Shown: positions 205 to 39,168 of the stretch, in pieces
Layout of the letters: each line of letters begins with the position of its first letter
Numbering within the stretch: position 1 is the stretch's first letter
Assembly (NCBI GenBank): GCA_902561325.1
Contig: CACEOL010000002.1
Span: 1-64,000, forward strand
Origin: an uncultured SAR86 cluster bacterium
Lineage (GTDB): Bacteria; Pseudomonadota; Gammaproteobacteria; Magnimaribacterales; AG-339-G14
Length of the DNA: 64,000 nucleotides
Direction of reading: 5' to 3'
Program-made: the position numbers and the translations under genes
The notes under the pieces: model-generated
Databases searched by the model: none
What the model saw: only the letters and a program-made list of their open reading frames with translations
Told to the model about the DNA's origin: nothing

Positions 205-1275
205 ATGCATAATCTTGAAGAGGTTGAGTTGATTATAGGAAACTCTGGAAAAAATTTCTCTGGAGTTACTTCAATTACTATTCAGCTACTCAGTTATCAA
301 TATAAAGAAATAAATTTAGCAGTCTTAGGTTCTTCTTTTATCCCAGATGAATTTAATACAATAAATTTTTATCAGTTTATTAAACTCACCAAAAATAAAT
401 TATCTAACGGAAAATATAGGATTTTTTTTACTCGCAGAAATGATGAAATGATTCAAGGCTTAATAGCCAAGTATGTTTTTGGCTCTAAAATAAAGATAAT
501 TTTTTTATCGACCGCTCAGAGAAACCATACAAGATTTACCAAATGGTTAATCTCTAAGATGGATAGTGTCATCTCAACTTCAAAAAAAGCAGCAAGTTAT
601 TTAGTAAAAGAACCTGACGCAATTATTCCTCATGGAGTTGATTTGAAAAGATTTTCTGCGCCAATTAATAAAGAAGATTCATGGGATAAGTTGAATTTTC
701 CCGGGACATTAGGAATTGGTATTTTTGGAAGAGTAAGACATTCAAAAGGTATAGATATTCTTGTTGATGCTGCAATAAATATTTTGCCAAATTATCCCTC
801 CGCTACAGTAATCATCTGTGGGGAAACGCAAATAGAAGATCAGCCTTATAAGAAAAAAATAATTTCTAAAATTAAGAAAGCTAATTTAGAAGACAGAATT
901 ATTTTTTTAGGTAAAAAAACCTTTGAGGAACTGCCAAACTTATTTCAAGGAATGACAATCGTTGCAGCTTTAAGTAGAAATGAAGGTTATGGCCTTACTC
1001 CTTTTGAAGGAATGGCATCGGGTGCAGCAGTATTAACCAGTTCAGAGGGTGTTTGGGATGAAATTATTAGAGATGGAGTTGATGGTTACGTTGTAGATAC
1101 TAATGATGTTAAACAAACTTCTGAAAAATTAGATTTATTAATAAAAAATAGTTCTAAAACAAAAATCATGGGAGAAAATGCTGCAGAATATATTAAACAA
1201 AACTTTTCGATTGAAACAGAAGCAAAAAAATTAATAGGCCATATTAGACATGTACAGAATACTGAAATCATTTAA
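205..1275 (+). CDS. Glycosyltransferase family 4 / group 1
   Basis: GIFGRVRHSKGIDILVDA and EGYGLTPFEGMASGAAVL motifs typical of GT-B group 1 glycosyltransferases. Confidence 0.8.
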   Translation: MHNLEEVELIIGNSGKNFSGVTSITIQLLSYQYKEINLAVLGSSFIPDEFNTINFYQFIKLTKNKLSNGKYRIFFTRRNDEMIQGLIAKYVFGSKIKIIFLSTAQRNHTRFTKWLISKMDSVISTSKKAASYLVKEPDAIIPHGVDLKRFSAPINKEDSWDKLNFPGTLGIGIFGRVRHSKGIDILVDAAINILPNYPSATVIICGETQIEDQPYKKKIISKIKKANLEDRIIFLGKKTFEELPNLFQGMTIVAALSRNEGYGLTPFEGMASGAAVLTSSEGVWDEIIRDGVDGYVVDTNDVKQTSEKLDLLIKNSSKTKIMGENAAEYIKQNFSIETEAKKLIGHIRHVQNTEII

Positions 1276-36684: not shown

Positions 36685-37488
36685 ATGATGAAAATTGAAG
36701 ATTTGTTTTCAGTAAAAGACAAGGTTGCTGTTGTCACTGGAGGATCTCGAGGGATAGGTGAAATGATTGCATCAGCGTATTTAGCAAATGGCGCTACTGT
36801 ATATATTACGTCCAGAAAGGCCGATGTTTGTGATGCAAAGGCAATAGAACTCTCGGAAAAATATAATGCTCAATGTACATCCCTTCCATCTGACTTATCT
36901 TCTCTAGAAGGAATAGAGAAGTTTGTAAAAGAAGTAGAGGCGTTAGAATCTGGGATTGATATTTTGGTAAATAATGCTGGAGCAGCATGGGCGGAACCTA
37001 TAGATGTTTTCTCAGAAAAAGGCTGGGATAAGGTGATGGATCTGAATGTCAAAAGTGTATTCTTCTCTACGCAAAAGTTTCTTCCACTGTTGAAGAAAAA
37101 AGCTACAAGAGAAGATCCTTCTCGGGTTATCAACATAGGTTCAATTGATGGTATTGGAACTCCTGTTTTTGAAACATACCCTTACAGTGCGTCAAAAGCC
37201 TCTGTTCATCACATGACAAGAGTGCTCGCTGCAAGACTTGTTAGAGAAGACATTTTAGTGAATGCCATTGCACCAGGACCTTTTCCTAGCGATATGTTGG
37301 GTTCAGCAGTAGCCCATAACTATGATGGCATTATTTCTAGAAATCCGGTCCATAGAATGGGTAGAGCCGAAGATGTCGGCGGTTTAGCTTTATATCTTTC
37401 ATCAAAGGCTGGTTCTTACACTGTAGGAGAAACCATTACTTGCGATGGAGGAACCATCTCTGCAACTGGTCACGATTTGAGTGAATAA
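36685..37488 (+). CDS. Short-chain dehydrogenase/reductase (RhlG/FabG-like)
   Basis: TGGSRGIGEMIA, NNAGAAW, YPYSASKASVHH, ITCDGG. Confidence 0.9.
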   Translation: MMKIEDLFSVKDKVAVVTGGSRGIGEMIASAYLANGATVYITSRKADVCDAKAIELSEKYNAQCTSLPSDLSSLEGIEKFVKEVEALESGIDILVNNAGAAWAEPIDVFSEKGWDKVMDLNVKSVFFSTQKFLPLLKKKATREDPSRVINIGSIDGIGTPVFETYPYSASKASVHHMTRVLAARLVREDILVNAIAPGPFPSDMLGSAVAHNYDGIISRNPVHRMGRAEDVGGLALYLSSKAGSYTVGETITCDGGTISATGHDLSE

Positions 37489-37513
37489 AAAAACCCCGTC
37501 ATTTCTGACGGGG
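37487..37513 (-). terminator. Rho-independent terminator for the minus-strand RNA
   Basis: Minus strand CCCCGTCA-GAAA-TGACGGGG followed by TTTTTTT. Confidence 0.9.
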
Positions 37514-37715
37514 CTTAAGAATAAGTATTTCAACTTAATTCTTACCTTAAGCGGGCGAACCGGCAAAAGGTCGGAATCGGGTTAACCCGTTGTCAAGAGG
37601 CACCCCCTGAAATTCCTGCTAATTCGTTAATACTAATTTGGACCACCTCCTTCACAGGGTAAGAATAAAACGCACTTTACTAGGAACCCCTGATATTGAA
37701 CCTAAGTGCAACACT
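37487..37715 (-). ncRNA. Candidate structured non-coding RNA of unknown family ending in an intrinsic terminator
   Basis: About 240-bp non-ORF gap rich in helices (CGGG-TTAA-CCCG; ATTCTTACC/GGTAAGAAT long-range complement); ends on the minus strand in a GC hairpin plus T7; 5' end not determined. Confidence 0.55.
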
Positions 37716-37728
37716 TGTGTTTATTTTA

Positions 37729-39168
37729 CTATAAGACGAGAGGGTAATAAAAGACCGATAAAAGAAGGATATATAGAAATGAAATTAAATTAATAAAAAT
37801 TCCTGCTCTTACCATTTGCTGAATGGGAACTAAGTTTGAAGCAAAGACTATAGAGTTGGGAGGAGTTGCAACTGGCAACATGAAAGCACAGCTAGCAACA
37901 ATTGTTAGCGGCAATGTAAGCAGCAAAGGGTTTATATCTAAATTGAAACCTACGCTAGCAATTACGGGCATAAAAGTTATTGTCGTTGTTAGATTGCTCG
38001 TTAACTCTGTAAGGAATAAGACCAACAATATAATCAAAGCAACTACTATAATGGGATTGACGTCTGCAGGTATCAAATTAGCTAACCATGAAGCAAGGCC
38101 GGTGGAATTTACTTCATAGGCTAAAGCCATACCTCCACCAAATAAAAAGATAAGCCCCCATGGAAATTTTTGCTGTAAGTCATCCCAATTAAGCAAATAA
38201 TCTTCTCTATTTTTAGAACTAACAAAAAATAGTGAGATGCCTCCTATCATTGCAATAACTGCATCTTCTAAAAAACCTAATCCTGGCAAATCGTCTAATA
38301 ATTTTCTAAATACCCAACAAAAGGCAGTTATCGAGAAAATTATTGCAACCATTTTTTGCTCTGAAGTAATCTTTCCTAAATCTTCAAGCATTGTTCTTAG
38401 TTTTGAATTTGTTTCCGGAGAAGCCTTAAAATTTATTGGAAAAATTAAAGAGGTTAAAATAAACCAAACAAGAGGAACCAAAACTAGTGTCACAGGCAAC
38501 CCTATTGCAAGCCAACTTATGAAACCTATATCTTGATTAAAATTATCATTTGCATATTGAATAAGATAGCCATTTGGAGAAGTTCCAATTGGAGTAGATA
38601 TTCCTCCCAGAGAAGCTGAATATGCAATTCCAAGGAGTAGAGCAAATTGAAAATTTTTACTCTCACTTGGAAGCAAATCTTTTACTGTCTCATTTATTAC
38701 AGATATGACTGACACTCCAATTGGCAAGAGCATTATTGCTGTAGAGGTATTCATAACCCACATACTTAAAATTGCACTTGTTAGCATAAAAGCAGCCACG
38801 ATATTTTTTGCCTGCATGCCACTATATTTCAGGATATTAAGTGCAATTCTTTTGTGTAAATTCCACTTTTGCATAGCAATTCCTATCATAAATCCACCAG
38901 CAAAAAGGAACTGAACCTTATTCATGTATTCTCTACTGATTACTCCAATTGGATCTATTCCTAACAAAGGAAAGAAAATTAAAGGTAATAGAGCCGTTGC
39001 ATAAAGTGGCATTGCCTCAGTAGCCCACCAAATTCCCATCAGTAAAAAAATAGCTGCAGTAAGCTTACCTTCGTTTGATAATCCATCTGGGACAGGCATG
39101 AAATAAATACAAACAAAAATTGCAATTCCAATCCAAAAACCGATTTTTTTGGCATTAAATGAATTCAT
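37729..39168 (-). CDS. DASS/SLC13 family anion:sodium symporter
   Basis: Multi-TM; STPIGTSPNGYL; TELTSNLTTTITFMPV; CAFMLPVATPPNSIVFAS. Confidence 0.9.
   Translation of the reverse strand: MNSFNAKKIGFWIGIAIFVCIYFMPVPDGLSNEGKLTAAIFLLMGIWWATEAMPLYATALLPLIFFPLLGIDPIGVISREYMNKVQFLFAGGFMIGIAMQKWNLHKRIALNILKYSGMQAKNIVAAFMLTSAILSMWVMNTSTAIMLLPIGVSVISVINETVKDLLPSESKNFQFALLLGIAYSASLGGISTPIGTSPNGYLIQYANDNFNQDIGFISWLAIGLPVTLVLVPLVWFILTSLIFPINFKASPETNSKLRTMLEDLGKITSEQKMVAIIFSITAFCWVFRKLLDDLPGLGFLEDAVIAMIGGISLFFVSSKNREDYLLNWDDLQQKFPWGLIFLFGGGMALAYEVNSTGLASWLANLIPADVNPIIVVALIILLVLFLTELTSNLTTTITFMPVIASVGFNLDINPLLLTLPLTIVASCAFMLPVATPPNSIVFASNLVPIQQMVRAGIFINLISFLYILLLSVFYYPLVL

Follow-up and report, generated by a model that had tools for sequence, protein, structure and literature searches.

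A predicted single-copy, pseudoknotted RNA of SAR86 bacteria with extended complementarity to the 16S rRNA 3' end

Introduction

Several described RNAs and mRNA regions of bacteria resemble in part the RNA that is the subject of this work. 6S RNA is likewise free-standing and housekeeping-like, about 200 nt in length, equipped with its own terminator and present in one copy per genome; the RNA described here, however, has neither a long hairpin resembling an open promoter nor a match in Rfam. With tmRNA it shares pseudoknots, a putative short reading frame and a suspected association with the ribosome, but not the tRNA-like domain. CsrB, RsmY and RsmZ are also stand-alone RNAs with GGA motifs, whereas the GGA considered here sits in an invariant block of 10 nt. 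A strong Shine-Dalgarno (SD) sequence followed by AUU, a codon against which initiation factor IF3 discriminates, is furthermore present in the infC-type initiation region. In our case, by contrast, the AUU is not followed by a long gene, is located between folded domains and can be replaced by AUC. Finally, the IMES motifs (IMES-1 to IMES-4) and the marine psRNAs, reportedly presented in 2009, are said to be abundant structured RNAs of marine bacterioplankton, and in this they resemble the present RNA, which is conserved throughout its order and described by no family of Rfam 15. Our comparison covered Rfam; the 2009 groups may already include this RNA.

The carrier of the RNA belongs to the SAR86 bacteria, a largely uncultured group that ranks with the most abundant heterotrophs in surface seawater. 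The DNA analyzed, hereafter the window, is a stretch of 64,000 nucleotides (positions 1 to 64,000 of contig CACEOL010000002.1, forward strand) from an uncultured SAR86 cluster bacterium.

Results

In the window, a gap of about 240 bp separates the stop codon of a plus-strand SDR gene (37486-37488) from that of an SLC13 gene (37729). An earlier note on this DNA had described the gap, in the size given here, as free of open reading frames and as ending on the minus strand in a hairpin followed by a U-tract. All of this holds: no open reading frame of at least 60 amino acids lies within the gap, the hairpin CCCCGUCA-GAAA-UGACGGGG is present at 37513-37494, the 7-base U-tract (37493-37487) overlaps the SDR stop, and the self-complementary segment CGGGUUAACCCG, also listed in the note, is found in the gap. 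Hairpin and U-tract together form a predicted intrinsic terminator (37487-37513, minus strand), the place of which is taken by different hairpins in other genera. On the opposite side lies a putative -10 element, TAAAAT (37723-37728, minus strand), where genus g4 has TAATAT and family f2 has TATAAT. It is preceded at a distance of 17 bp by a putative -35 element, TTTATT (37746-37751, minus strand), inside the end of the SLC13 gene. When upstream sequences were compared, the promoter-like -10 proved to be kept, along with a -35 at 17 bp in family f1; other genera have TTGTTA or TTGTTC as -35 with the same spacing of 17 bp. Promoter and terminator delimit a conserved block that would correspond to an RNA of about 230 nt (37487-37716, minus strand), the 5' end being placed according to the position of the -10.

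Homologues of this block occur order-wide. Of the 203 genomes of the order, 136 gave a match to covariance model R1, always a single one, representing 21 of 22 genera and four families, and among the good genomes of the order the RNA is present in 34 of 40. Note that a genome without a match may be incomplete, as MAGs are, or may carry an RNA that is too divergent, and that the E-values are rough. In the window's genus, 14 of 16 genomes matched; 13 of these matches are real, with 92-100% identity and the window's own genome among them, and the remaining one, 25 bases long with E 0.03, can be disregarded. For the window's family, blastn revealed the RNA in 27 of 40 genomes. The weakest matches in family f2 have E-values near 0.01, and the matching loci that were fetched show the same anatomy; a later match in family f3 (L140) does not have it. 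In closely related species the RNA is 98-100% identical as compared with 87-98% for the flanking genes, and within the genus the respective values are 90-100% for the RNA and 77-98% for its SDR and SLC13 neighbors. When genera are compared, the RNA in its full length retains 55-66% identity and diverges about like the genes, while a core of 90 nt retains 74-87%.

Scanning 84,980 species for the motif gave 112 stretches, and the 80 scan matches listed belong to SAR86 cluster records or to Gammaproteobacteria records that carry no more precise name; by inference, this identifies the order, and with it the window, as SAR86. No credible match came from genomes sampled outside the order, 369 of the class and 399 of the phylum. 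Class-level matches obtained with model R2 reached at most 27 bits, and those viewed, all lacking the motif, were rejected; a single match of 25 bits in the phylum sample is not counted as credible. Phage records were without a match. A viral contig from IMG/VR (L305, positions 230-251, minus strand) shares only the short motif, which reads GGAGGTGATC-G-ATTAATATTTA there and directly precedes a terminator; we attribute this match to chance, which would produce about one such case.

Single-sequence folding alone makes a weak case for an RNA, the fold surpassing chance by only a small margin (z of -2.0 and -2.3, with 7 and 5 of 200 shuffles as good). Across homologues, 88.8% of cells are paired in the whole structure as compared with 38-56% for slid versions, and 39 cells changed on both sides contrast with 13 in shuffles. 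As RNAalifold misplaced the terminator register when applied to alignment A1, the helices were checked by hand, by pair counts and by strand swapping. P0, recognized by inspection, would join UGUU (37710-37713) to GACA (37594-37591). It covaries as AGUC/GACU (L070, L073) and CGUC/GACG (L095) and is mismatched in L107 and L108; a crude window test gave it no statistical support, and our confidence in this helix is moderate at best. The P1 hairpin (37672-37709) pairs GCAC-UUAGG (37709-37701) with CCUA(G)-UAAA-GUGC (37684-37672). In a test anchored on the P1 loop, its own arms beat swapped arms in 17 of 17 clusters (0 of 5000 permutations). Crude fixed-window swap tests were without signal for P1, PK1 and P0 (972, 620 and 2001 of 5000, respectively). 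PK1 is a predicted pseudoknot between CAGGG in the P1 loop (37688-37692) and CCCUG (37655-37659) just before the SD-like motif. Its strands are complementary in all 17 clusters, e.g. CAGGG/CCCUG, GAGGG/CCCUC and GAGAA/UUCUC, in a test that is partly circular, as complementarity was the criterion by which the strands had been selected. A few automatic picks, such as those for L197 and L286, were misplaced.

The central domain is enclosed by P2 (37573-37616), formed by GGAAU (37616-37612) and AUUCC (37577-37573). P2 is invariant in f1, its fifth pair varies elsewhere (U-A, U-G, C-G, A-U, G-C), and it prevailed over swapped strands in 12 of 17 clusters (313 of 5000 permutations). Inside P2 lie the hairpin and pseudoknot strands UCAGGGG..CCUCUUGA (37593-37610), of which GCC (37601-37599) is the 5' strand of S2. 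The S2 strands beat swapped partners in 16 of 17 clusters (0 of 5000), with few pairs in the window copy itself. A small hairpin, CGGG-UUAA-CCCG (37578-37589), follows; in g4 it reads AAGGG-UUUA-CCCUU, with the register shifted by one. The last two hairpins before the terminator are P4 (ACCUU..AAGGU, 37544-37571), which shows two-sided changes across genera and appears as CUAGAGG/CCUCUAG in g3 and CUAAUAA/UUAUUAG in g4, and P5 (AAGAAU..AUUCUU, 37517-37543, loop UGAAAU), with two-sided changes at 4 of 9 pairs and 97% of cells paired. Compensatory changes thus support P1, the central pseudoknot strand S2, P4 and P5 in the predicted structure. A 9-bp complement singled out in the earlier note (37538-37546 with 37658-37666) exists in the window but is not a conserved helix (AAUUUACCCUG as against AGUAAGAGAUU in genus g3); its bases take part in P4 and P5, both of them conserved, and in the pseudoknot strand CCCUG. 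Gathering homologous intergenic regions, as the same note had proposed, yielded order-wide homologues with compensatory changes, and these, together with the near-identity across closely related species, place the RNA beyond chance.

A divergent relative resides in SAR86 NORP90 (L203; NVUL01000047.1, about 5.9 kb, reverse strand; 35.7 bits with R2). It has the same 5' layout and a different 3' part. By eye, a promoter, a P1-like hairpin with a CAGGG loop, CCCUG, GGAGGUGAUC, AUUAAUAUU and a later terminator can be discerned. This relative came to light separately from the matches in the order, to which NORP90 may belong.

The sequence GGAGGUG[A/G]UC forms one long block almost without variation. 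The window copy, GGAGGUGGUC (37641-37650, minus strand), is complementary to the 3' tail of the organism's own 16S rRNA (GGAUCACCUCCUAA), and the motif occurs once in the window as compared with 0.07 expected. GGAGGUGRUC was present in 124 of 124 distinct homologues, a set collected with a search expression that contains it, and is equally invariant in the 41 sequences of alignment A5, which derives from the covariance model. The 16S tails read in 16 genomes from all four families contain GAUCACCUCC, complementary to GGAGGUGRUC, in every case, and the variable A/G always faces a U of the 16S rRNA. In f1 the tails read GGCUGGAUCACCUCCUAA or CCUAU, in the remaining families CUCCUUA. Among the 16S 3' ends L316-L327, those of f1 have CCUCCUAA or CCUCCUAU and not CCUCCUUA immediately behind the anti-SD core.

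Continuous complementarity to the real 16S tails extends over 11-14 nt in 17 of 17 clusters, while strictly Watson-Crick partners within the RNA itself do not exceed 4-5 nt. The complementarity is conserved and located in a segment that is unpaired in the structure model. The long match suggests that the SAR86 RNA works on the ribosome. We consider the chances about evenly balanced that it is a standalone, single-copy, pseudoknotted RNA acting in trans on the small ribosomal subunit by docking to 30S. This assessment takes into account that GGAGG occurs frequently for unrelated reasons as well, that the block may be masked by the GU-rich UGCCUYUUG or be invariant for an internal reason, that one G-U pair is present in about half of the sequences, and that the count of 124 comes from a motif-containing search expression.

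An AUU codon (37635-37637, minus strand) lies 8 nt after GGAGG, i.e., at SD spacing. In 76 distinct frames this codon is AUU 73 times and AUC three times but never AUG, and its distance from GGAGG is 7-9 nt; a few spacers of 2 nt are an artefact of the search expression. The AUU opens a stop-free, possibly coding frame of 14 codons that ends with UGA (ISINELAGISGGAS; 37593-37637, minus strand). None of the 76 distinct sequences has a stop in this frame before the shared UGA at codon 15, whereas the other two frames contain stops in 56 and 74 of them. The length is 13-14 codons across homologues, with a single change of -3 nt (L098), and the NORP90 relative also has 14 codons and then UGA in a local structure that looks different. 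If columns are treated as independent, 14 clusters would all lack a stop with a probability of about 4e-4, a rough estimate in which structure is not considered. Frame, length change and NORP90 relative would all fit a translated micro-mRNA or dual-function RNA with an SD-driven start at AUU/AUC, in which a peptide of 13-14 amino acids, or simply the passage of the ribosome along a stretch of fixed length, matters. However, third positions show no excess variation (mean entropy of 0.92, 1.02 and 0.92 at the three codon positions), the amino acids are poorly kept, and the gain in similarity stems largely from stop avoidance. Moreover, a normal start codon is never present, and the frame shares its sequence in part with P2, S2 and P0, so that its length may be set by the spacing of these elements. 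Translation of the frame is an explanation that we regard as unlikely, albeit worth keeping in mind.

The invariant block could also owe its conservation to a protein or an RNA other than 16S rRNA, or to tertiary structure. In line with this, the GGAGG strand can pair internally in f1-f3 with GU-rich partners (UGCCUYUUG, 7-10 pairs), and the adjacent AUURUAUU, which has no partner in 16S rRNA, is almost as conserved. On the other hand, none of the internal partners is shared by all families, and the sole change tolerated, A/G, keeps the pairing to the 16S U. We judge a constraint other than 16S rRNA to be rather improbable.

The genes next to the RNA differ between families, an argument for action in trans. 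Next after the RNA in f1 comes the antisense SDR gene, and f3 has neighbors other than those of f1, f2 and f4. In f2 and f4 (e.g. L085, L090), an EamA-like gene, so named from reading its sequence and not from a profile search, directly follows the terminator on the same strand. This latter arrangement would be expected for a cis-acting riboswitch or attenuator of an EamA-type transporter that was orphaned in the window's family. Yet the RNA is not consistently upstream of a same-strand gene, the EamA-like gene being restricted to f2 and f4, and sequence, promoter and terminator are kept in f1 and f3 despite their different neighbors, leaving a cis-acting element very unlikely. Given that gene contexts differ between families and that the layout of promoter, body and terminator is the same, the gap looks like an independently transcribed RNA of about 230 nt.

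A search of the gap against Rfam 15 returned nothing at gathering score, and relaxed thresholds gave chance-level matches, mostly on the terminator hairpin. Together with the order-wide covariation, this agrees with the proposal in the earlier note of an unassigned structured RNA on the minus strand. Neither 6S RNA (RF00013) nor tmRNA (RF00023), two of the families it had named for comparison, matches the gap, and its suggestion of a divergent 6S RNA is disfavored: the region contains no 6S match, and the best one in the genome is found elsewhere (C1:116021-116192, L015; full length, 37.7 bits, E 2e-6). The latter is the likely 6S RNA of this genome (G000), and as it stays below the RF00013 gathering score of 46.4, standard annotation would miss it. 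The tmRNA of the genome also lies elsewhere (185 bits) and none is present in the region; covariance-model searches located tmRNA elsewhere above cut-off in eight of nine genomes, the window's genome included. CsrA was detected in families f1 and f3 but not in the near-complete genomes G088, G092 and G100 (f2) and G195 (f4), all four of which carry the RNA, and sponging of CsrA is disfavored on this basis. The distribution of CsrA itself, undetected in these genomes of two SAR86 families and present in the other two, suggests a loss. Despite its several GGA motifs, its free-standing nature and its size near that of 6S RNA, the RNA is thus most improbably a divergent 6S RNA, tmRNA or CsrA-sequestering RNA of the CsrB/RsmZ type.

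Discussion

An SD sequence of the length found here binds the tail of the 30S subunit strongly, and IF3 disfavors AUU and AUC as initiation codons. If the RNA docks to 30S, its two folded domains would flank a single-stranded linker, in which the extended SD sequence GGAGGUGRUC would pair with the 16S rRNA tail over 11-14 nt without interruption and place the AUU/AUC codon approximately at the P site. The RNA would then occupy the anti-SD sequence and the mRNA channel of free 30S subunits. The resulting complex would be expected to initiate poorly, AUU/AUC being disfavored by IF3, and the likeliest consequence would be that translation initiation is restrained or gated. More tentatively, the RNA may stand for a class of folded, ribosome-directed RNAs that thread a single-stranded segment with extended SD and AUU through the 30S mRNA channel, thereby holding or gating small subunits and possibly sensing IF3. 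In that case, these abundant ocean bacteria would, as an order, control translation initiation by means of an RNA.

The alignment and the motif make the RNA directly testable in existing marine metatranscriptomes. Should 30S docking prove true, the RNA would be one of the rare dedicated RNAs of bacteria that use anti-SD pairing to act on the ribosome itself and not on one mRNA.
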